DNA from: a virus
Virus record (IMG/VR): IMGVR_UViG_3300043409_001176
Location: 1-21,419 of that record
DNA: 21,419 bases
Reading direction: 5' to 3' (one strand)
Positions within the stretch are counted from its first letter, which is position 1. Every line of letters starts with the position of its first letter. A program made the position numbers and the translations under genes. Positions 560 through 20,148 of the stretch are shown one piece after another. Below the pieces are notes generated by a model. That model ran no database searches. It was not told the origin of the DNA and saw only the letters and a program-made list of their open reading frames with translations.

Positions 560-2569
560 ATGGCTGGATCGCAAGCAAATACAGGTCAATGGTATGAACC
601 AGAAACCCCATACGGTAAAGTAAAGGGTAAGGATTTAGCACCAAGAAACAATGCTTCCAAAAGCACGATTTATCCATTTAATCAAGTAACAGAAACAGAA
701 TCTGGACATATCATTGAATTGGATGATACTCCGGGTGCAGAACGAATTAACATTCACCACAGAAGTGGAACCTTCGAAGAAATCCATCCAAACGGAGATA
801 AGGTAGAAAAAGTCGTAAGAGATCAGTATGTCTCTATTCTCAGAGACAGTAATGTTCATATCGACGGATTTTCTAATGTTACTGTGGATAAGGGATTGAA
901 AGTTTTTGTAAACAGAGATAATCTTCCAAATGCTGAATCATCTTGTGTGAATTTTGATATCCATGTCGGACAGAATGCTAATGTCAATCTGTTCTTGGAG
1001 AAGGGAAATTGCAATGTTCGCCTAGACGATGGGGATCTCAATCTTGAGATGAAACGGGGAGATATCAATATTGCACAAGATAAAGGCAATTTCAATCATT
1101 TTATTGGTGGAGACTATAATCTAGAATGCACAGGACATATGCATGTTGTGGTTGGACAGGATCATGTAACAGAGATAGGTGGATCTAGGGATGCGCGTGT
1201 AGACGGTGCGTTTGACAATTTGCAAGTGACCTCTGGTTACAAAGAAACACTGGTTGGTGGAGATCACCGCACAGAAGTTATGGGTGGTGTATATGAACTA
1301 TATCATAAGTCACAAGATACTCGAATTTTGTTAAATCGGATTGCTCATATTCTCGGAACAAATGATACAGTTATTATTGCAACAGATACTTTGAATGTGG
1401 GGGGATCACAAGATCAAACTATCACGGGATCTCGTTCAGTGACTACTGGTGGATCTACAAATATTCTAACAGCTGGATCTACTAAAGAAACTACTGGAGG
1501 ATCATTAGATATGCTATCTGGAGGAAAAACTGCCATATCCTCTTCTTCTATGCATCTAAACGGTGGATCTAGTATCATAGGCAGCGGAGGAGTGATCCAT
1601 TTTAATGGGCCTCCTGCAAGTGTAGCATCACCTGCTGCGCCAGCATCTCCTTCTACTTCACGCCCAATTTACATTCCAGGCCAGGGTGGGATTTGGAGAA
1701 AATCATCCCCAACTCACTCTAATAGTCCATTGGCGCAATTGCAAATGGTGTCTATGGATTTGATGGGACAATTACAAACAGTCAATACATTGACCACAGT
1801 AAATGCAGGGATAGCAACACAATTAGGAAGTTTGAATGAAAATGTAGCAGAACTCACCAATCTTTCTGGCCCACTTGATCAATTAGGCCCAGCGATAACA
1901 GAAAATATAAGTGGTTCTCTTTCAATAGCACAGGGAATCACGGATCAGGTTGCTGGTGTGGCAAGCGGTGCGGCGGATGTTGCATCTTCTGCTGCGGGAA
2001 CTGCAACAGGTGCAGTAGGTTCTATTACTAGTGCGGTTGGTGGTGCAGCAGGCGCAGCGGGCGGTGCTGCCGGCGCAGTCGGTGGTGCTGCTGGAGGAAT
2101 TGGTGGTATTACTGATACAATTAGTGGGGGAGCGAGTTCTCTTGGTGGATTAGGTACAGCATTTAGTGGAATCGGATCTGTTATTGGAGATGTTGTTGGT
2201 GCGATTGTTGATATCGGTTGTGCTATTGGTGATTTAATCAAAAACTTTATTGGTGGTGTAGTAAATGTAATCAATGGTGTGTTTAGTAAAATAAGTGAAA
2301 TCCTCGGTAAGATCACAGGTATAATTGGCGAAATCCTCGGTAAGATTGGAGAAATTATTGGCGGTATATTAGGAGCAATCAATGATGTTCTTGGTAAGAT
2401 CATTGATGCTGCTGGTAAATTTATTGGTGGTATTGCATCCGCAATCAATGGTATTCTCTCCAATCTCTTTGATGGATTTGGAAATATCGGATGTGGTGAG
2501 GAGTTACTGGCGGGGGTTGCCCCAGATCTGGGCACAGACGCACTTCCCTCTGTTGGAGGACTAGGTTAA
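560..2569 (+). CDS. 5: Baseplate central spike, gp5 C-terminal beta-helix half, with long C-terminal extension
   Basis: This 669-residue protein carries the gp5/VgrG spike signature ESGHIIELDDTPG at residues 47-59 and HRSGTFEEIHPNGDKV at 67-82. A repetitive beta-rich region follows to about residue 350, becoming clear octads (Gly-Ser at positions 1-2) at 282-329 and ending in GGVIHFNG. By family knowledge such chains trimerise into the triangular beta-helix that pierces the outer membrane. The protein has no lysozyme domain, and its OB-fold is presumably supplied by the preceding ORF. After the helix come an Ala/Pro/Ser linker (about 350-380), a polar segment, an Ala/Gly-rich low-complexity stretch (about 465-525), and about nine 11-residue Gly/Ile-rich repeats (547-645). 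T4 gp5 has nothing comparable. The stop codon shares an A with the ATG of the PAAR gene (TAATG), so the spike and its tip are probably translationally coupled. The spike assignment is secure; the role of the last 315 residues is unknown. Confidence 0.88.
   Translation: MAGSQANTGQWYEPETPYGKVKGKDLAPRNNASKSTIYPFNQVTETESGHIIELDDTPGAERINIHHRSGTFEEIHPNGDKVEKVVRDQYVSILRDSNVHIDGFSNVTVDKGLKVFVNRDNLPNAESSCVNFDIHVGQNANVNLFLEKGNCNVRLDDGDLNLEMKRGDINIAQDKGNFNHFIGGDYNLECTGHMHVVVGQDHVTEIGGSRDARVDGAFDNLQVTSGYKETLVGGDHRTEVMGGVYELYHKSQDTRILLNRIAHILGTNDTVIIATDTLNVGGSQDQTITGSRSVTTGGSTNILTAGSTKETTGGSLDMLSGGKTAISSSSMHLNGGSSIIGSGGVIHFNGPPASVASPAAPASPSTSRPIYIPGQGGIWRKSSPTHSNSPLAQLQMVSMDLMGQLQTVNTLTTVNAGIATQLGSLNENVAELTNLSGPLDQLGPAITENISGSLSIAQGITDQVAGVASGAADVASSAAGTATGAVGSITSAVGGAAGAAGGAAGAVGGAAGGIGGITDTISGGASSLGGLGTAFSGIGSVIGDVVGAIVDIGCAIGDLIKNFIGGVVNVINGVFSKISEILGKITGIIGEILGKIGEIIGGILGAINDVLGKIIDAAGKFIGGIASAINGILSNLFDGFGNIGCGEELLAGVAPDLGTDALPSVGGLG
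1403..1546 (+). repeat. Octapeptide repeats of the gp5 beta-helix
   Basis: Six consecutive eight-residue units, residues 282-329 of the spike protein, mostly begin with Gly-Ser (for example GSTNILTA and GSTKETTG). T4 gp5C is built from eight-residue pseudo-repeats of this kind, each adding a strand to the trimeric beta-helix. At DNA level the units share a recurring GGATC(T) core. Confidence 0.75.
1952..2134 (+). repeat. Ala/Gly-rich low-complexity tract in the spike C-terminal extension
   Basis: Residues 465-525 of the spike protein are almost entirely Ala, Gly, Val, Ser and Thr, with a core of alternating GGAAGA/GGAAGAV units at about 2036-2100. This stretch is visibly GC-richer than its surroundings. 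It suggests a flexible or glycine-zipper-like segment before the hendecad region. No function is known. Confidence 0.7.
2198..2461 (+). repeat. Tandem 11-residue (hendecad) amphipathic repeats in the spike C-terminus
   Basis: From residue 547 to about 634 (degenerating to 645) the protein reads in 11-residue units. The clearest, at 580-590, is EILGKITGIIG, and the next unit differs from it at only two positions. Hydrophobic residues recur at unit positions 2, 3, 6, 9 and 10, with Gly at 4 and 11 in the best copies. A 17-base direct DNA repeat (GAAATCCTCGGTAAGAT) occurs at 2297-2313 and 2330-2346, exactly 33 bases apart, so part of the array arose by recent duplication. Eleven residues make about three alpha-helical turns, which fits a long amphipathic helix. 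Confidence 0.75.
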
Positions 2570-9258: not shown

Positions 9259-12200
9259 ATGGGTTATAATCACCCCGAAATTTTAAAATCAAGTCCTTAT
9301 TATGATGACTTTGATGATACAAAAAACTTCTTGCGAATCTTGTTTAAGCCAGGATATGCTGTTCAGGCTAGAGAACTAACGCAACTACAAACTCTCCTCC
9401 AGAATCAGATTTCCAAATTTGGAAGTCATATTTTCAAGAGCGGTAGTCAAATTTTTGGTGGTGGAGTCAATCTTGGAACTGCTAATTTTATTAGAGCTAG
9501 AATCACATTCGCTGCTACGGGAGTAGTGACATCCTCTGCAGATCTAATAGGTAAAGTTCTAACAATAGGTAGTAACCAAACTTTAGCACGGGCAAAAATT
9601 GTGGATGTGTTGTCCCCAATAGCAAGTACAGATCCTAACTATACTATTATTTTACAATATCTAACAGGAAATACATTTGCTGTTGGAGCAGAATTGACTT
9701 TTGATGGTACAATTACTGCAACAACTATTACTATTCCATCTACTAGTATTACTAATATACCTTCTTCCGATAATATTGGAGTATGTCAGACACTTTCTGT
9801 AGACAGCGGTATATTTTATACTGATGGATTCTTTGTAAACAACACCGCTCAAACAACTACACTTCATGTGTTACAAGACGGGGTTCGTAAATTCCGTGAT
9901 CTGATTCTTACATCAGAGGGTGTAACAAACCGTATTGGGTTTGAAGTTGTTCGAACCGCAATAACCTCAGAAATTGACTCTACATTAACTGATCCTGCCC
10001 GTGGTTTCTATAACTATAGTGCGCCTGGCGCAGATCGTTATGTTATAGACTTACAGTTGACCACGCAAGAATTTGATCCTACTTCAGTAGAACCCGGAGA
10101 ATTCACAACAGAAGATTTTGTAGAACTTGCCCGTGTAGTTAACGGAGTGTTGGATTATGTAAAGAAAGTACCAACATACGCAGAATTAGAAGACACATTA
10201 GCGAGAAGAACCTATGATGAGTCTGGTAATTATACAACAAAACCATTTGAACTAGAAGTGAAGAATCACTACAGAAATGATATTTATGCACTTGCTATTA
10301 AAGTAGATTCTGGATTTACTCAAGAGATGTATGCTGGTGATTATATCGTTACCAAATTTAATGGCGTAAATACAAAAGTTGGTAAGATTGTTAGATTTGA
10401 AAAATATATCCCAACTTCAGATGAAGTAAATTCGACAGAACAATCGGACTTACCAACAACAACTGTCTATGTTGAACGCAAAAAGAATGATAACGATATA
10501 CTAGATTATCCTTTCTTTTCTACAAGTACAACTGATAATCAAAATATTATATATTATCTAAATGTCGAACGAACTACAGAAAAACTATTAGGAATAACAA
10601 AACAAGTCGTTGCAAGTAGAGATCCTGATGGTGTGTATTCTCCTGAAGAGGGAGGAGATGATGAAAAGTATGTGTTGTCTGTTAAACCGGGAAAAGCATA
10701 TGTTTTTGGTTATGAGTTTGAGACAATTAATAATACAAATATCATAGTCGATAAAGATAGATCTGAATCTATAGTTTCTCTTGATGATTATAATCTTGGT
10801 GCTAATGTTGGAAACTACTTCTTGGTCGAAGCACCATTTAATACATGGAATACTGAAATAGATCTTGAAGATATGCCATATTTTAAATTTGGTGGTAGAT
10901 ATATTCGTCTCACAATTCCACAACAGGAAGAAATTAAGAGATCACAATTTTTAAAATATTGGTCTCCTCTACCATCCGATCAAGATCAAACAACATATAG
11001 AAGCGTTGTATTTGTTACTACAGTAGAAGCTTTAGCTACAGAATCTCTTGTTGGACACACAAATCCATCAAGTCCGGATTATCTGCATTTAATAGATTCT
11101 TCTGTAGAAGAAGGTGGAACAGAGCTAGAAATCGCAAACGATGCTGGATTTATTCGACCACAAAATACCGATATTGCAATATCTAAGTACGCTGGTGGTG
11201 GTACATCTCTTGCATCATATCCTATTGTAAATATGAGTAATGCCCCAGAGAGTAATATCACAAGAATGGTATTCACTGATCCATGGCACGGAAATGTTAC
11301 TGTTGCCTATGATATCACCTCAGAATCTGCAACAAATAACGCAAATACTTATATTGCAGAAACAGAAAATTTATTTAATATAAAGCAAATAAAATGCTTA
11401 GATACCGCTGTTCCTACTTCTATTCAAGTAACTACAGGTATAGGACTTCGGTGGATTCCTGCATCAGCAACAGGAGTTGGTCTTGCAAGCGGAAGTACAT
11501 TATATACAAAAGTAATTAGATCTATTTCATGGACTGGCGGAACCAACACAGAAAATGCACATTTTAATCTTGATGATGGTGTTGTCTTCACTGATCCTGC
11601 TACATCAACTAGTCCAATTTCATACGGTACAAGTATCGCATATGTCATTCGTGAATCTAATACTAAGAGGCACATAATCAAACCTAATGGTTCACTTGGA
11701 TGTAATGGAGGGGGAGCAGTAGATTGTACTGACGAAGGTCAAGGTGGATTCTTTGCTGTTGGTGATATTGTAACTCAGAATTATATCATAAACGGACAAG
11801 AAGTACAAGCAGTTGGAGAAGTACTTGCTGTTGGTGGTGATTTTTCTTTACCAACAGAAGGTAATAGTGGTGTTGAGGTATTCATACAATCATCTGGCGT
11901 GTATTCGTTCTATGGTGTTAATGATGAAGATATCTCCACTCAAGGAGTTACGGAATTGGGTTGTATTATTGGTCCATGTGGCGTATACAAACCTCGTTCA
12001 TCAATATCATTAAATAATCCAACCTGTGGTGAACTAATAAGAATAGGATTCAAAGATTCAGAAGATGTTGGTGGGTATGCTGTCAATGGTACTGTATTCC
12101 AGTACAATTATATTGCGCTTCAGGAAGACATAAACGAGGTTCCTTCATATCTTGCATCTGATTTGGTGCGAGGTAAGGTTGTTTCTTGGAATGAAACTTC

Positions 12201-15200
12201 AAAAGAACTTATTGTTCTTGAGACACAAGGACGATTTGAAAAATCAAATGGAACAATTTATCAATTAGCAAGTGGTACAGACGGACAAGTAAAATATGGT
12301 GGTCGTGGTTGGGATAAAGCAAAGACCAAACACTCAGCAGACACAGATAATGGAGCAGGAATATCAATTTATGATATTGAAAAAGTAAGTGGTATATTTA
12401 TTGATCTTAATGGGACAGTAAATAAGAATTTTCTTGAAACTTCTATTAGTGTTTTTGACTATACCCCCGCTCGTCAAGGAGAAAGTATAGTTCAGATTGC
12501 AATTCCGAGTAGTGATAATTATACAGGTCAGGCCTTCAGTGCAGGACAATTAATTTATCAGAATAGAGGTACTGATGGTGTTGCTAGAGGTATTCTATTA
12601 TCTTTCACACACAAGGATTTGACAAATCCAGCAGATGTGTCTGATACTGTATTGATAATTCAACCAACTGATATTGTTGAATTTATTGTTGGAGCTACAG
12701 CTAATCCTATCTTAGTTACAAATAATAGTTCACTATCCCTGCCAGTAACTGCATTTAATGCAACAAAAACAAAAGAGATAATTGGATGTGGTAGATTGCG
12801 TATTTTACGCAGACAAGAAGAAACTGCATATCAAGCATTTTTCTTTGATATAAAGATGGATTATCTTCCAGATCTTTCTAGAAAATATAATCTAAACGAA
12901 GTTTCGACATTCTATTATGAAACAGATTTTGCGAGTAGTATTGTTAATAATTACGAAGATGATGACATACAATTAGTCACAGCAAATGAAGACGATTATA
13001 TCTTTGCTGTGCATCCTTCGGAGGGAATTGATCTCAGCACAACCACAGATAACTTTACATTTAGTAAAGTGTTTGATCCTGAATTAAATAATCTATTATT
13101 CATGTTGCCAGGCAGTTCATCAATCAAATCTGTTGGTGAAATGGATTATAGAATTCAGCAACAACTATCCTATGCTGGAGACTTCAGCACACAAGCAATA
13201 ACATTTAATACACTCGATTCGTATGTTAGGTTTATCGGGGGAGAGTCATCATTGGTGGGTAAAGTAGACTCGAATGATTTAATAGAACACTACACTTTAT
13301 TTGTCAATGGAGTAGTGGTAGATCTAACAGATAGTTTGTATACAACAACAACTAATAATTACGGATCCCCAACATCAAACGCCACTGTTACGATCACAAA
13401 AACAGGACCTACATGGCAAACAAGTCAGGTAACCTCAGTACAACTTATTACAAATCTTAATGTAAATCCTAAACCTGCTAATACTGGTATTAGAACAAAA
13501 CAACAAAAAAGACAGACAGAAACTGTGACTCTAAAGAAGACTAAAGATGGTTTATGGAAAGCAAATCTCACAAAAGCAGATATAATTTCTATAGATAAGA
13601 TTACCACAGCGGGATCTTCTACAGATATTAAGAGTGAGTTTGATTTGTTTACCGGACAGACAGACAATCTCTATGATTTTGGACAGGTAACATTAAAGAA
13701 TGAATACTTAGTTGAAAATGTACCAGAATATACAGAAATTATCATCTCATATCAATACTTTAGTCATAAAGGTGTAGGCCCAATAACAATAAATTCATAT
13801 ATCGATAGTGTAGATTATAAAGATATTCCATATTATACGAGTACAGCAACAGGAAAGGTTTATAAATTAGATTCTGTTGTTGATATGCGTCCTGTTATAG
13901 AGTTGGTCAATGGTAAGGGTGTAATAACAAAGAAGTGGATCCCTGCACCAGCAGCATCATTTGATGTAGATTATGAGTATTATCTATCTAAAGCACATAA
14001 ATTGGTCATAACAAGAGATTTGAAATTCAAACTGATTAGTGGACGACCAGCATTTGAAGCAGAACTACCAAGTGATGACGAAAATGCAATGACTCTTTAT
14101 AATATCTTAACAGAACCTTATGTGTTTGATCGTTCTGATGTTGTTGCTAGTATGGTAAACAATCGTCGATATACGATGAAAGATATAATTGGTCTGGATA
14201 ATAGAATTGAAAAACTAGAACAATATACAATATTGAATTCGTTGGAGATGAAAGCATTATCAGAACAAATAATCGATGTTAATACGCAATTGGACAGAGT
14301 GCGGACAGCGGTTCTTGTAGACAACTTTAGTACACACGCTACTGGTGATACTGTAAATACGCAATATAATATTAGTATCGATTCAGAAGAGAATACTATT
14401 CGTCCACCATTTACAATGAATTTGATTACATTGAATGAAACTAATCCTGTTCTTGATAATTTGGTAAAAACATCAGATAATGTTGTTTTATTACCTTATG
14501 ATGAGATCAATCTTATTAGTCAATATGCAAGCAGTGGAGTAGAAAAAATCAACCCATTCAATGATATTTCGTGGATAGGAACAGTGAAATTATCACCATC
14601 ATCAGATGCGTGGTTTGATACTCAAGTTGTTCCTGATATAAGAGAAAATAACAATGGTGTTAACGATGCAATCGTAACAACAGTTCCATCAGTAGAAAAT
14701 TATCAAAATACTAGTTTTGGAAAGAATTATCGATTCTGGAAGAGATCGTGGTTTGGTAAAACAGATAATTCTACTTCTGTAGGTAATGTACAAAGAAAAA
14801 GAAACACCAAATACGCAAGACAAGCAATCCGTGATGTTCATTTTAATAAAAGAACAAATCCAGCAGAAACAACCACATCAAATACAGTGAATGTTGGTCA
14901 AAATAAAGTGGTTGATAGATCTGTAATGCCATTTATTCGACCAAAGACAATAACTGCAACGGCCGAAGGCTTGCGTCCGTATACTACTGTATATGTGTTT
15001 TTTGATGATGTTGATATCAGTTCAGAGTGTACAATTTTGAATAATGTTGGTGGTAGAGTAGGAGGAGTACTATTAACTAATCGTTATGGATCAATTAACT
15101 TCTCGTTTAATATTAAGTCTCGTACATTCAAGGCAGGAGAAAAGATTCTTGTTATTACAGATTCTCCATCAAACAGTTCTGCTCTTGCGTCAACTGTTGC

Positions 15201-16620
15201 TGAAACGACATATAATGTTAGTGGAGCAATCCAAACATCAGAATCTAATTATGTCTCGACTCGTAAAGCAAGAAAAAACCCATCTAGGTATTCTAAAAAT
15301 GTAAGCGATCCTGTTGCACAAACATTCTTCGTAGATCCATTAGTATATCCACAAGGATTATTTGTTAGTAGCGTGGATCTTTTCTTTGCAGAAAAGGATG
15401 GAAGTTTACCAGTAACTGTAGAACTTCGTCCAACCAGTTCTGGGTATCCGGCTAGTCGTGATTCAACTTTAGTTTATCCATTTGCAAGTGTCACGAAATA
15501 TTCAGAAGATATTGTAATTACAAATACTCCAAATTTAAATAATGCAACAGCACAAGGAATATCAGTTGCTATTAATAGTACTGTAGAAGACACGCGAACT
15601 AGATTTACTTTCTCAACACCAGTACATTTACTTCCCGGTGAGCATTGTCTAGTTGTTAAGACAAATAGTTCTGATTATCTATTATATGTTGCTGAAATTG
15701 GACAAAATCTATTGAATGCAACAGGACGAATCGCTCAACAAGCGGCAATTGGTTCTTTCTTCAAGAGTCAAAATGCAGGTAAATGGCAAGCATATGAAAA
15801 TATAGATTTGATGTTTGCTATCAATCGATGTGAATTTTCTGGTTCTACAGGATTATCAGGATCCATTACGCTAAATGATGTTGTTAGTGCAACTACACCA
15901 GATCACTTATTCGAAACGCTCACAGTAAATAATGATGAAATCAAATTTAATAATACTGATATCACATACACCATTCGAACAGTTAATGCTACAGGATCTG
16001 TCCTGCAAGCAAATAGTATCCCAATTACAGTAAATAATAATATCAATTTGAGTACTGCAAGTAAGGTTACATACAACGGGGAAAGTATTGAATTGGGTAT
16101 TTCTCTCACAAGTACAGATACCTATATCAGTCCTATGTTTGATTTGGATCGCCTAGCGGTGATTGCTATACACAATATTGTTGAGAACAATACATCAACA
16201 TCAAAGACAAATTTGAATTATAATGGAGAATTAGAACCAACAACTCCAATTAATAGCACTGAAACTGCGAGAAGTCGATATATTACTAAAATAGTAGAAT
16301 TGGAACAAGGATTCGAATCTACCAATATTAAGGTATCAATGGGTGCAAATTTACCTGCAGGGACAAAAATGCAGGTATTCTTGAAACAACAATCTATGGG
16401 TAAGGATAGTAGATTCGATGAAGAACCATATATTCAGTTGGTTTCTAGTAAACCAACCTATGTTTCTCCAGATGAAAATACATATGAAGATTTATTCTTT
16501 ACCATACCAACAGATTTGGAACAAGCATTTTCAAAGTTTGCTGTTAAGATCTGCTTATTCTCCGACAATCCAGTACGCATACCAAAGGTTAAAGAACTCA
16601 GGGTGGTGAGTCTTGTCTGA
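9259..16620 (+). CDS. Giant baseplate/tail virion protein (marine T4-like type, DUF4815-like)
   Basis: This 2453-residue protein starts after a good GGAGAG ribosome-binding site at 9245-9250. Residues 23-63 carry the marine T4-like signature 'FLRILFKPGYAVQARELTQL', then 'FGSHIFKSGSQIFGGG'. Near 471 is YVLSVKPGKAYVFGYEFE. About 1180-1680 resembles the conserved core, with 'VVDMRPVI' near 1540 and RRYTMKDI, 'LDNRIEKLEQYTIL' from 1636. A block at about 1884-1970 has 'MPFIRPKTITATAEGL..YT.VYVFFDDVD' ending in 'RTFKAGEKILVITD', a recurrent phage tail motif. From 2017, DPVAQTF begins a domain with 'LFVSSVDLFFAEKDGSLPV'. Roughly 520-1180 looks like inserted beta-rich material with a Cys cluster. By position it replaces T4 gp9/gp10 and likely belongs to the peripheral baseplate or fibre base. 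The exact function is unknown, and the DUF4815 label is from memory. Confidence 0.7.
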   Translation: MGYNHPEILKSSPYYDDFDDTKNFLRILFKPGYAVQARELTQLQTLLQNQISKFGSHIFKSGSQIFGGGVNLGTANFIRARITFAATGVVTSSADLIGKVLTIGSNQTLARAKIVDVLSPIASTDPNYTIILQYLTGNTFAVGAELTFDGTITATTITIPSTSITNIPSSDNIGVCQTLSVDSGIFYTDGFFVNNTAQTTTLHVLQDGVRKFRDLILTSEGVTNRIGFEVVRTAITSEIDSTLTDPARGFYNYSAPGADRYVIDLQLTTQEFDPTSVEPGEFTTEDFVELARVVNGVLDYVKKVPTYAELEDTLARRTYDESGNYTTKPFELEVKNHYRNDIYALAIKVDSGFTQEMYAGDYIVTKFNGVNTKVGKIVRFEKYIPTSDEVNSTEQSDLPTTTVYVERKKNDNDILDYPFFSTSTTDNQNIIYYLNVERTTEKLLGITKQVVASRDPDGVYSPEEGGDDEKYVLSVKPGKAYVFGYEFETINNTNIIVDKDRSESIVSLDDYNLGANVGNYFLVEAPFNTWNTEIDLEDMPYFKFGGRYIRLTIPQQEEIKRSQFLKYWSPLPSDQDQTTYRSVVFVTTVEALATESLVGHTNPSSPDYLHLIDSSVEEGGTELEIANDAGFIRPQNTDIAISKYAGGGTSLASYPIVNMSNAPESNITRMVFTDPWHGNVTVAYDITSESATNNANTYIAETENLFNIKQIKCLDTAVPTSIQVTTGIGLRWIPASATGVGLASGSTLYTKVIRSISWTGGTNTENAHFNLDDGVVFTDPATSTSPISYGTSIAYVIRESNTKRHIIKPNGSLGCNGGGAVDCTDEGQGGFFAVGDIVTQNYIINGQEVQAVGEVLAVGGDFSLPTEGNSGVEVFIQSSGVYSFYGVNDEDISTQGVTELGCIIGPCGVYKPRSSISLNNPTCGELIRIGFKDSEDVGGYAVNGTVFQYNYIALQEDINEVPSYLASDLVRGKVVSWNETSKELIVLETQGRFEKSNGTIYQLASGTDGQVKYGGRGWDKAKTKHSADTDNGAGISIYDIEKVSGIFIDLNGTVNKNFLETSISVFDYTPARQGESIVQIAIPSSDNYTGQAFSAGQLIYQNRGTDGVARGILLSFTHKDLTNPADVSDTVLIIQPTDIVEFIVGATANPILVTNNSSLSLPVTAFNATKTKEIIGCGRLRILRRQEETAYQAFFFDIKMDYLPDLSRKYNLNEVSTFYYETDFASSIVNNYEDDDIQLVTANEDDYIFAVHPSEGIDLSTTTDNFTFSKVFDPELNNLLFMLPGSSSIKSVGEMDYRIQQQLSYAGDFSTQAITFNTLDSYVRFIGGESSLVGKVDSNDLIEHYTLFVNGVVVDLTDSLYTTTTNNYGSPTSNATVTITKTGPTWQTSQVTSVQLITNLNVNPKPANTGIRTKQQKRQTETVTLKKTKDGLWKANLTKADIISIDKITTAGSSTDIKSEFDLFTGQTDNLYDFGQVTLKNEYLVENVPEYTEIIISYQYFSHKGVGPITINSYIDSVDYKDIPYYTSTATGKVYKLDSVVDMRPVIELVNGKGVITKKWIPAPAASFDVDYEYYLSKAHKLVITRDLKFKLISGRPAFEAELPSDDENAMTLYNILTEPYVFDRSDVVASMVNNRRYTMKDIIGLDNRIEKLEQYTILNSLEMKALSEQIIDVNTQLDRVRTAVLVDNFSTHATGDTVNTQYNISIDSEENTIRPPFTMNLITLNETNPVLDNLVKTSDNVVLLPYDEINLISQYASSGVEKINPFNDISWIGTVKLSPSSDAWFDTQVVPDIRENNNGVNDAIVTTVPSVENYQNTSFGKNYRFWKRSWFGKTDNSTSVGNVQRKRNTKYARQAIRDVHFNKRTNPAETTTSNTVNVGQNKVVDRSVMPFIRPKTITATAEGLRPYTTVYVFFDDVDISSECTILNNVGGRVGGVLLTNRYGSINFSFNIKSRTFKAGEKILVITDSPSNSSALASTVAETTYNVSGAIQTSESNYVSTRKARKNPSRYSKNVSDPVAQTFFVDPLVYPQGLFVSSVDLFFAEKDGSLPVTVELRPTSSGYPASRDSTLVYPFASVTKYSEDIVITNTPNLNNATAQGISVAINSTVEDTRTRFTFSTPVHLLPGEHCLVVKTNSSDYLLYVAEIGQNLLNATGRIAQQAAIGSFFKSQNAGKWQAYENIDLMFAINRCEFSGSTGLSGSITLNDVVSATTPDHLFETLTVNNDEIKFNNTDITYTIRTVNATGSVLQANSIPITVNNNINLSTASKVTYNGESIELGISLTSTDTYISPMFDLDRLAVIAIHNIVENNTSTSKTNLNYNGELEPTTPINSTETARSRYITKIVELEQGFESTNIKVSMGANLPAGTKMQVFLKQQSMGKDSRFDEEPYIQLVSSKPTYVSPDENTYEDLFFTIPTDLEQAFSKFAVKICLFSDNPVRIPKVKELRVVSLV

Positions 16621-16843
16621 TAAAATAAAGGTAGAAAATCAAGAAGATCTGGTTCGTGATGTTTATAATGGAGCAATTCTAAACACTAATTTATCCTCAA
16701 TAGTTGCATATAAAGCAAGAAAAAATGAGATAAATAAAATGAGAACTTTAGAAAATAGAGTTTGCGGAATAGAAACGGATTTAAGAGATATAAAAAGTCT
16801 ACTACAACAATTAGTAGTCGCAGAAGGAAAGAATAATCAATGA
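16613..16843 (+). CDS. Small coiled-coil virion-associated protein
   Basis: This 76-residue protein begins with TTG at 16613, overlapping the end of the giant gene by eight bases. The GGTGG/GGTGAG run at 16602-16610 may serve as its ribosome-binding site. The sequence has 'LVRDVYNGAILNTNLSSIVAYKARKN' in the first half and then a heptad-like helix (RTLENRVCGIETDLRDIKSLLQQL) with hydrophobics at a/d spacing, suggesting a coiled coil. Small proteins of this pattern sit beside large structural genes in marine T4-like phages, perhaps as an assembly partner or oligomerisation piece. The only in-frame ATG, at about 16739, would remove the N-terminal half, so TTG is preferred. The stop overlaps the next ATG as ATGA. 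No specific function can be assigned. Confidence 0.65.
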   Translation: MSDKIKVENQEDLVRDVYNGAILNTNLSSIVAYKARKNEINKMRTLENRVCGIETDLRDIKSLLQQLVVAEGKNNQ

Positions 16844-19800
16844 GTACTAATGAAATCGATATTGTTAAATTAAGTATTAATGATACTTTTTATGATTGGT
16901 TCTTGCGAACAAATCAAGTTATTGATTATGTCAATCCTATTAATGTGTATGATGTATTTGCTGGTGCAGGCATATTGGAAAGTCGAACAGGAACACCGGG
17001 TACAATCGAACTATCGATCTCCACTAAATCAGAAACCTACGCAATTGATACGCTGCTCGATACTGGTGGAGTTAGCACAGTTGCTCTGAACTACAACGAT
17101 TTAACTATTGGCACTGTTGTTAACACCACTAAATTTGGTATTCAGGGAACTGGTAGTCAAATATTTAGAGTGGCAGCATCTGATATGCTACCACCAACAT
17201 TACACTCAAATCATACATTTACAGGAACCATCACAGTTGCTGATCTGATCGTAAATGATGGAACTATCACCCTAAACAACACAATGTCAACGAGCAGAGA
17301 TAATTGTGGACTGATGATAGAATCCAAAGCAGATAACTTTAGCGAAAATGTTTACTTTACATATGATGTTGAGACAGAAGCATGGTATTCTAGTGAAAAT
17401 TTGGGTGTGAAGTCTGGTAAAGCGTTCGTAACAGATTCTTCTCCAAAGGCAATCTTTCCATTTCAGTCATCCTCGTCACAAGGACAGATTGATGTTCGGT
17501 TACAATCTATAATTGGTGGAGTGAACGAACGATTCTCAATTGAAGCAGAATTTGATGCAGGTAATTCTCTCACATTCTCACATTACTTAAATAATATATT
17601 GGTTCATGATGTATTAGAATTGACATCAAATGGTACTGCTGGAAGTGAAGTAATTGTAAAAGATATCATCACGATCACCGATGTAATCAATTCTAATCCT
17701 TTTACACAAACACCAGTTGCAACAAACATACCAATCACCGATTCTACAAATGGATATCTGAATACATTTGTTAATAGAATAAAACTTCCAAAGGGAAGTG
17801 TTACTGTTGGTGAAGTTGTTAGAATGGGTAGCACTACTCTAGAACTGGCAACTCCAACCAGTCTGAGCGCATCACAATCTATTGGTATCGTAGAAAGTCT
17901 AGATGGATCGAATGCAGTCGTTATAACATCTGGACCATTTTCTGGTATCACTGGTCTTTCTGGATTCACTATTGGTGATGTATATTATCTAGATCCCACT
18001 GTTGCTGGTGGAGTCACAAACACAGATCCAAATAACACAAATGGAATTTTAGACAAACCCGTCTTTATAGCAACTTCTGCAAATGGCGGTGTGTTGATTC
18101 CTGATTTTACCTCTATTGGAGGAGGGACTGTTATCTCTGGTGGTGGAACTGGTACTGTAAACAATGCTTTTAAAACTATAAGTGTTGATACAGAAACCCT
18201 GACTGCTAGTGGTGAAGATAATGTTATTTTTAGTAGTGGAACTTTCATTGATCTAGATTTATCTGGTGATGTGATAACTGCCAACTGTACGATTGCCAAT
18301 GCTCGTCCTGCATATTCCATATGGTCAACTGATGCAAGTGGTTCATTATCATTCAATACAATTCCTTCTTATTCTATCCCTGCGAGAACACTGACAGGAA
18401 CATTGTCTTCGGTTACATTAACTCCCGGTACATTACTTGGTAGAAGAGATGATACAGATGACACAGATAATCCAGTACAAGCGTTGTCTGGTAGTGAGGT
18501 ACTGAGTCTTCTGGGATTCAGTGGAAACAAATATATTAAAAATATACTGTTTGAAGGTGGAACAGGAACCGACGAGTTTGATTTTGATGCAGACAATTCT
18601 GAGTCTATCAGTATTCGTGCTGGTGATAATATTAGTTTTGAGTATTTGGGTGGTTCTCTCTATATTCACAGCGCAGGTCTTGCAGACACTACTAATCTGG
18701 GAGGATCAGCAGCTCTTATAATAGCAACAGAAGGAGATCCACAGGCACAAATAAATCGATTGATCTTTGAGGATGATTTTGGGGGAGCTGCAACAAATGC
18801 TACAAAGTTTATAGAGTTCTCGATGAGAACCGTAGGAACAAACTCAGATGCTTTTATTTCAGCTAAACCAACTAATAATTACTTAAGATTAAGTGGTGAT
18901 GGAGTAATTTTAGGATCACATACTGCTGGTAAGTTATTGAAAATACAAGGAGATACTAGAGTAGGAACCACTAGTACTCTTAGTACAAACTCAGCAGGAG
19001 AAACATTTATTATTGGACTATCACCTATGATTATAGTTGATAAAATTAAACCTCTTAAATCATCAACAGGAGATGATGGTCTTATATTATCTGGAGACTC
19101 CTCTATTACTGCCAGAAATACTGTAAAAATTATCGACTCTCCGAGAAACAGTGCTGATAATAAAGACGAATATACAATGGTTATCAATGGGTTTGATGAT
19201 ACTACTTCTGCAACTCCCAGAGTGAGTACATACTTGAACGGTGTGTTTGCAAGTGATGTATCTGGACTTAAAACAAAATGTGTCTCTTTATATGCGGATG
19301 CATCAGCTATTTCCTCAACAACAGAGGGGGATGTATATAGTTATCCATTTAGATTATTTGAATTGGTTGTAGATAAACTCCATGTTAATGAACTTAATGC
19401 TACTACGGCTATAAAATTAACAGAGTATTTGAGTACTGTAATAGGAACTAGTATTGGTCAGTCTTTTCCGTATAATACTTCAGATATTTGTATGGTTCGA
19501 TATAAAACAGATACACAAACTGTTGATAATCCATCTGGTGTGAACGGTGTGGGACTGACTTTCTTTGATGATGTATCAGGCGCACCGACACCATATTCAT
19601 ATATCATTAGACCATCAGCGTTTAGAGCTAATATATTAGATATACCAGCAAGCACATTTATTGTTAGTGATCACTTATCATTTGGTTCAAGTACAGATGC
19701 AGATGCTGTTAGTCCATATCTATCAAGAGGTGCTGCTGGTAGGATTGATATCACATCAGATGCTGTGACAGATGTATCCCTTCGTATACGCGGAGATAGT

Positions 19801-20148
19801 TCTGCTGGTGGTGAGGGTATTCTCGGATGTTCATCTATAGCGAATGGGTATCTATATTTAATTAATAATTCTGGTGGTAACACTGCATATCTACAATTGA
19901 ACGCAGGGAGCGGTAATAGTATAATCAAAACAGATACACTGACTATTACCGATGGAAGCAATGGTATTAAATTTGAGACAGATGCATTCGCAAGTACCGC
20001 TGCAGATAATGGTAAGGTTATGTTTGTGAATACAGTTGCAAGTGGAGTAGCAACAATGAAAAGTGGTTATATAGTAAAACCACTCCCTGCCGGCGCAGTA
20101 CCAGCTACCGATCCTATAAATACTCTATATTATACAGTAGTAGTCTAA
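16840..20148 (+). CDS. Tail-fibre-like virion structural protein
   Basis: The N-terminus of this 1102-residue protein (SINDTFYDWFLRTNQVIDYV, about 12-31) matches the 'TF..WL..TN.IID..N' baseplate-attachment pattern of large T4-like fibre and baseplate proteins. Residues about 305-428 form a recognisable fibre module: 'KLPKGSVTVGEVVRMG', then 'GFTIGDVYYLDPTVAGGVT' and 'KPVFIATSANGG'. At about 528-560 is a second common fibre element, 'GTLLGRRDD' followed by 'ALSGSEVLSLLGF'. The rest is Gly/Ser/Thr/Asp-rich and beta-rich, as expected for a trimeric fibre shaft, ending in 'YIVKPLPAGAV..' and hydrophobic TVVV. No C-terminal chaperone or collagen repeats were seen. It starts with an ATGA overlap after the coiled-coil gene. 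It is probably a receptor-binding or fibre-base component; the receptor is unknown. Confidence 0.7.
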   Translation: MSTNEIDIVKLSINDTFYDWFLRTNQVIDYVNPINVYDVFAGAGILESRTGTPGTIELSISTKSETYAIDTLLDTGGVSTVALNYNDLTIGTVVNTTKFGIQGTGSQIFRVAASDMLPPTLHSNHTFTGTITVADLIVNDGTITLNNTMSTSRDNCGLMIESKADNFSENVYFTYDVETEAWYSSENLGVKSGKAFVTDSSPKAIFPFQSSSSQGQIDVRLQSIIGGVNERFSIEAEFDAGNSLTFSHYLNNILVHDVLELTSNGTAGSEVIVKDIITITDVINSNPFTQTPVATNIPITDSTNGYLNTFVNRIKLPKGSVTVGEVVRMGSTTLELATPTSLSASQSIGIVESLDGSNAVVITSGPFSGITGLSGFTIGDVYYLDPTVAGGVTNTDPNNTNGILDKPVFIATSANGGVLIPDFTSIGGGTVISGGGTGTVNNAFKTISVDTETLTASGEDNVIFSSGTFIDLDLSGDVITANCTIANARPAYSIWSTDASGSLSFNTIPSYSIPARTLTGTLSSVTLTPGTLLGRRDDTDDTDNPVQALSGSEVLSLLGFSGNKYIKNILFEGGTGTDEFDFDADNSESISIRAGDNISFEYLGGSLYIHSAGLADTTNLGGSAALIIATEGDPQAQINRLIFEDDFGGAATNATKFIEFSMRTVGTNSDAFISAKPTNNYLRLSGDGVILGSHTAGKLLKIQGDTRVGTTSTLSTNSAGETFIIGLSPMIIVDKIKPLKSSTGDDGLILSGDSSITARNTVKIIDSPRNSADNKDEYTMVINGFDDTTSATPRVSTYLNGVFASDVSGLKTKCVSLYADASAISSTTEGDVYSYPFRLFELVVDKLHVNELNATTAIKLTEYLSTVIGTSIGQSFPYNTSDICMVRYKTDTQTVDNPSGVNGVGLTFFDDVSGAPTPYSYIIRPSAFRANILDIPASTFIVSDHLSFGSSTDADAVSPYLSRGAAGRIDITSDAVTDVSLRIRGDSSAGGEGILGCSSIANGYLYLINNSGGNTAYLQLNAGSGNSIIKTDTLTITDGSNGIKFETDAFASTAADNGKVMFVNTVASGVATMKSGYIVKPLPAGAVPATDPINTLYYTVVV
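20115..20122 (+). promoter_or_regulatory. T4-type late promoter element TATAAATA inside the fibre gene 3' end
   Basis: This perfect TATAAATA, preceded by C as in many T4 late promoters, lies within the last dozen codons of the fibre gene. With T4 spacing the transcript would start near 20128, giving a leader of about 32 bases that contains the AAAGGA ribosome-binding site at 20147-20152 before the ATG at 20160. The placement suits a promoter for the next gene. A chance match remains possible in AT-rich DNA. Confidence 0.6.

Follow-up and report, generated by a model that had tools for sequence, protein, structure and literature searches.

The window analysed here, a stretch of 21,419 nucleotides covering positions 1 to 21,419 of IMG/VR record IMGVR_UViG_3300043409_001176, comes from an uncultured virus that is related to phage T4 and carries a conserved extension on its spike protein. 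The following features lie at the spike locus.

Spike gene and neighbouring genes

1–549, + strand: 3' part of a gene, truncated at the window edge, that encodes the OB-fold portion of gp5 as a protein of its own (ORF matched to the L006 ORF)
560–2569, + strand: spike gene, 669 residues, a gp5C-type beta-helix followed by a C-terminal extension
560–1609, + strand: gp5C-like collar and triple-stranded beta-helix, residues 1–350 (profile and PDB matches, pN/pS 0.21)
1610–1720, + strand: Pro/Ser/Ala linker, residues 351–387, with conserved PIYxPG..W and TH..SPL motifs (composition, alignment, pN/pS 0.53)
1721–2149, + strand: probably helical, weakly conserved region grading into an Ala/Gly-rich tract, residues 388–530 (composition, alignment, pN/pS)
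2150–2482, + strand: phase-coherent hendecad amphipathic segment, residues 531–641, with a hydrophobic face of ~165 degrees (periodicity, pN/pS 0.26)
2219–2221, + strand: invariant Cys554, in a GC motif early in the amphipathic segment (alignment; counterpart LGC in cyanophage gp5)
2492–2494, + strand: invariant Cys645, in a GC motif just past the amphipathic segment (alignment; counterpart GISC in cyanophage gp5)
2569–2850, + strand: PAAR tip protein (gp5.4-like); its ORF overlaps the stop codon of the spike gene (PF05488, E 1e-7)

The spike ORF is open for 669 codons, and the motif GGVIHFNG at the end of the beta-helix occupies residues 343–350. The original prediction had placed a 315-residue extension past this point; the extension is present, with a corrected length of 319 residues (residues 351–669, nucleotides 1610–2566). 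Residues 1–350 match the PHROGs family phrog_430 (baseplate hub/tail lysozyme) with an E-value of 1e-34 and the T4-type spike chains in the PDB with E-values from 6e-18 to 1e-14. The match to the Pfam family PF22178 (Gp5_trimer_C) has an E-value of 2e-6 and a score of 28.2 bits, just below the curated 30.9. Spikes of the T4 type are trimers in which the C-terminus of the beta-helix lies at the tip.

The OB-fold gp5 gene is complete in two related loci, L006 (3127–3990) and L004/G001, where it matches PF06714 (Gp5_OB) with E-values of 4e-16 (L006) and 5e-17 (G001). Profile searches found no lysozyme match in either the OB-fold ORF or the spike ORF. Judged by these matches, gp5 is split here, as in cyanophages, with the OB fold on one protein and the beta-helix on another. 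The intact PAAR gene stands beside the beta-helix spike as had been proposed, immediately 3' of the spike gene in each of the ten members of the lineage described below that were aligned, and is followed by gp25, gp6 and more baseplate wedge genes. The PAAR protein is rich in cysteine; among phages, its nearest matches come from large ones, NCTB and Erwinia phages for instance, and share ~50% identity with it. Farther downstream, two very long structural ORFs (9259–16620 and 16840–20148; 2453 and 1102 residues) follow a gp8-like wedge gene. On the minus strand, a 196-residue antisense ORF (1945–2535) mirrors the repetitive coding region and seems to reflect its composition rather than a real gene.

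Conservation and periodicity of the spike extension

The chain past the beta-helix runs in the order originally described, from a Pro/Ala linker through an Ala/Gly tract (29% Gly and 26% Ala in residues 451–530) to a hydrophobic tail. Searches of the extension against Pfam, PHROGs and NCBIfam found no enzymatic or effector family after the beta-helix; its composition is that of a low-complexity helical region, and no polar catalytic motifs are conserved across the aligned relatives. DUF7217 and Baculo_PEP_C were considered as families for the extension and rejected, their matches in the window protein being below the curated Pfam cut-offs; such matches also arise for the cyanophage modules discussed later and are typical of low-complexity helices. 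The AlphaFold2 monomer model of the extension was uninformative (pLDDT 37), as was the AlphaFold2 model of the module from cyanophage S-PM2 (pLDDT 36). It should be mentioned that monomer prediction cannot reveal a trimer, and that helices in residues 388–530 were seen in the low-confidence model only.

In scans of IMG/VR the same spike gene turned up on about a dozen contigs, which belong to one lineage. The whole extension is kept in each of the ten members that were aligned, the window included, with identities to the window protein of 61–71% over the full chain and 51–62% over the extension. Pairwise pN/pS values, which are read as relative only, with synonymous changes near saturation, are 0.21 for the beta-helix, 0.26 for residues 531–641 and 0.53–0.55 for the linker, the helical region and the Ala/Gly tract. 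Purifying selection on residues 531–641 almost matches that on the beta-helix, while the tether drifts; based on this difference, the segment seems to be a functional end carried on a drifting tether. Both Cys554 and Cys645 are invariant in the alignment. Within residues 531–641 the alignment has a single indel: the window protein lacks four residues, about one turn of helix, and stays in phase; the Ala/Gly tract, in comparison, is variable in both length and sequence. L007, which is more distantly related, shares the beta-helix but has a short and different C-terminus. A Tblastn search of phage records with the whole extension gave no match at an E-value of 0.01, and a genome scan found no relatives in bacterial or archaeal genomes.

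The hydrophobicity spectrum of residues 531–641 has a peak at a period of ~3.65 residues, close to the hendecad value of 3.667, with a power of 21 that was matched by none of 1000 shuffles at any period from 2 to 16. Pairs of Ile, Leu, Val, Met and Phe at lag 11 are 7 SD above shuffles, in agreement with the 11-residue hydrophobic periodicity that the original prediction had offered as a check. Each aligned relative peaks at 3.63–3.65, and the family consensus at 3.644. In the hendecad register, four of the eleven positions are occupied by Ile, Leu, Val, Met or Phe at 83–99%. The hydrophobic residues form a single stripe, ~165 degrees wide, with the polar residues on the opposite side, so the placement of hydrophobics on one helix face was correctly anticipated. 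The phase drifts slowly across the segment with no jump, as expected of one continuous helix of ~115 residues per subunit, which would be ~170 Å long if straight. A helical hairpin joining Cys554 and Cys645 was considered and is opposed by the unbroken phase across the midpoint.

Two details of the proposed repeat were revised. About nine 11-residue units had been described; the hendecad periodicity is real and spans about ten hendecads, but it is not an array of sequence repeats, as Tandem Repeats Finder reports only two 33-bp copies and the sequence follows the literal unit xILGxIxxIIG nowhere but around residues 578–603. Glycine makes up 16–23% of the amphipathic segment and is modestly enriched on one flank of the hydrophobic face (side bias p = 0.03), but it has no 11-residue spacing of its own (lag 11 z = 0.5), and the regularly spaced glycines of a strict glycine zipper were therefore rejected. 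A transmembrane check was also negative: scored by the Hessa 2005 scale, even the most hydrophobic 19-residue windows have an apparent dG of +6 or more, so that none favours membrane insertion. The net charge is about zero or negative.

A similar module in cyanophage gp5

The original prediction missed that a similar module recurs widely in the gp5 of cyanophages (for example at L035:2082–5027), where it belongs to the OB-fold protein and not to the spike tip. There it sits between the OB fold and later domains, at the position taken by lysozyme in T4, flanked by LGC and GISC. Cyanophage gp5 was found in 59 phage records, including S-PM2, and 423 IMG/VR contigs match the profile search; no accepted Pfam family was reached for the module. 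Common to the window extension and the cyanophage module is a hendecad stretch flanked by GC motifs ~87–95 residues apart, so that invariant cysteines bound the module in both groups. Cyanophage (Kyanoviridae) gp5, represented by phrog_1922 and phrog_694, thus resembles the window in its split gp5 and in a ~90-residue hendecad module between invariant cysteines, and differs in that the module follows the OB fold, on the other polypeptide, has its best period at 3.69–3.71 and contains a third cysteine mid-module.

The extension profile matches phrog_694 and phrog_1922 with E-values down to 7e-9 (an E-value of 1.5e-8 is given for phrog_694), and tape measures match it too. Alignment of the window and cyanophage modules by hhalign gave 89–94%, with 93% and an E-value of 3.5e-7 in the forward direction compared to 51–72% when one side was reversed; the window module against its own reverse gave 95%, so low complexity inflates these values. 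On such sequence comparisons, homology of the two modules is suggestive but not secure. An unbiased scan covered 127 ORFs of T4-like baseplate blocks; of the eleven 100-residue stretches with the strongest amphipathicity, ten belong to the window-lineage extension or to the cyanophage gp5 module, the exception being a basic protein in L042. No amphipathic stretch of such strength was present in the scanned stretches of HTVC008M, Mosig, Aes508, Melnitz-3 and Cr30.

Possible roles and comparison with known systems

We propose that the extension is a tethered, membrane-active cargo of the spike complex, a reading to which we give about an even chance. The needle half of the split T4-type central spike would be a trimeric beta-helix under a PAAR cap. 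Past the tip, each chain would continue as a flexible tether, first Pro/Ala and later Ala/Gly in character, that leads to a continuous amphipathic helix, so that the extension would be trimeric and close to the tip. The spike would carry tether and helix into the periplasm, where the greasy face of the helix may bind to or insert into the host inner membrane. The membrane-bound helix could then help the tail tube to dock and to open the inner membrane, by analogy with the role proposed for the hydrophobic segments of tape measures.

Several observations favour this membrane-active cargo. A functional end-piece borne by a flexible arm would be expected to show just this pattern, a conserved segment on a drifting tether. 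The attachment of a similar module to two different spike polypeptides, one of them in cyanophages, fits a tethered cargo better than a part fitted to the tip. The module also resembles tape-measure regions, of a kind that in T5 are thought to meet the membrane (PMC10038345), and the bare T4 spike tip, gp5C-gp5.4, binds no liposomes (PMC7600766). The cargo aspect is supported by Methylophilales phage Melnitz-3 (L023:5653–7656) and Caulobacter phage Cr30 (L026:5521–7626), in which the chain runs past the beta-helix into an endolysin-like domain matching phrog_894 ('endolysin') with E-values of 8e-13 and 6e-13. The motif of this domain, of the type SxHxxGxAxD, indicates that it is probably an M15-type peptidase; a PDB carboxypeptidase match has an E-value of 0.23, and phrog_894 is the only significant match. 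These two phages point to the spike C-terminus as a site of envelope-acting cargo in this phage group and make the parallel with extended VgrG proteins, drawn in the original prediction, a reasonable one. Against membrane action stand the net charge and the lack of a transmembrane-grade window in the segment, as well as the hendecad core, whose four strongly hydrophobic positions in eleven also suit a soluble, straight coiled coil.

This last point leads to the main rival, which accounts for the data nearly as well and which we regard as possible rather than probable. The three 115-residue hendecads may form a soluble, near-straight coiled-coil rod, pack along the beta-helix, or dock to the tape measure, a chaperone or the hub during baseplate assembly, with no action on the host membrane. 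The canonical hendecad with four strong core positions fits such a structural element, as does the absence of a transmembrane-grade window. One solved structure shows a full-length tape measure as a coiled coil of three chains (PMC11329794), so that resemblance to tape measures is no proof of membrane action. In phage TP901-1, recruitment or binding of a chaperone was considered a likelier role of the tape-measure hydrophobic regions than one at the membrane (PMC5099701). However, a glycine content of 16–23% is unusual in a soluble coiled coil, a ~165-degree hydrophobic face exceeds what a trimer needs, and the occurrence of a similar module on two spike polypeptides is awkward for a precisely fitted part.

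It appears improbable that the extension is sufficient to form a channel for DNA in the host membrane, as originally suggested. The helices of the extension are amphipathic and contain glycine, and hendecad helices line the DNA tube of phiX174 H, but that tube is a decamer (PMC7354561) and just three copies are expected per spike, while six transmembrane helices are needed for a channel according to the authors of the T5 study (PMC10038345). Hairpins would give twice as many helices, but the single hydrophobic stripe, with its unbroken phase, speaks against them, and no segment is of transmembrane grade. A cell-wall-acting or toxin effector, as in evolved VgrG proteins, has precedents in Melnitz-3 and Cr30 and in the T6SS, but is very unlikely given the lack of an enzymatic family match, the low-complexity helical composition and the absence of conserved polar catalytic motifs among the relatives. 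We find it equally hard to believe that the tail is non-functional drift retained by chance, since, for all the variation of the Ala/Gly tract, pN/pS in the amphipathic segment is 0.26, there are cysteines and glycines that never vary, every relative has the same period, and the one deletion keeps the phase.

With membrane-active cargo as the preferred reading, a broader and rather doubtful idea can be put forward. Marine T4-like phages may share a mobile, spike-borne amphipathic module, attached to the OB-fold gp5 at T4's lysozyme position in cyanophages or to the beta-helix tip in the window lineage, which would engage the host inner membrane directly and bypass the host-chaperone contact proposed for T4. 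The passage of contractile-tailed phages through the inner membrane is an unsolved problem (PMC7600766), to which the spike extension offers a good entry point: with a conserved amphipathic segment built into the spike, the idea that the spike itself engages the membrane can be tested directly. Since the similar module occurs in S-PM2, S-CAM1 and other cyanophages in culture, such experiments need not rely on the uncultured virus.

Besides cyanophage gp5, we have compared the window spike with four known systems. Like the T4 gp5C spike, it has a beta-helix of the Gp5_trimer_C/phrog_430 type, and a PAAR gene comes next (gp5.4 in T4). It differs in having the OB fold in a separate protein, with no lysozyme match found in either ORF, and in its 319 extra residues past the beta-helix, where T4 gp5 ends at the tip.

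In the T6SS, a VgrG with a C-terminal extension combines a beta-helix needle, cargo past the tip and a PAAR cap. Such extensions are described as effectors in PMC4067218. The window spike is unlike them in that its cargo is amphipathic and helical, with no enzyme or toxin domain found.

The extension profile also matches the tape-measure family phrog_58 with a best E-value of 5e-14, and the best solved chain for the module is the tape measure of 80alpha (PDB 6v8i, E 0.004). The hydrophobic regions of tape measures are, like the window segment, hendecad, Gly/Ile-rich amphipathic helices; however, a tape measure lies in the tube lumen, sets tube length and has several hundred residues, whereas the window segment has ~115 residues and is fused to the spike. 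The phiX174 H protein also uses hendecad helices in a DNA-delivery device, in its case as a presumably unrelated protein that forms a decamer with a polar lumen.
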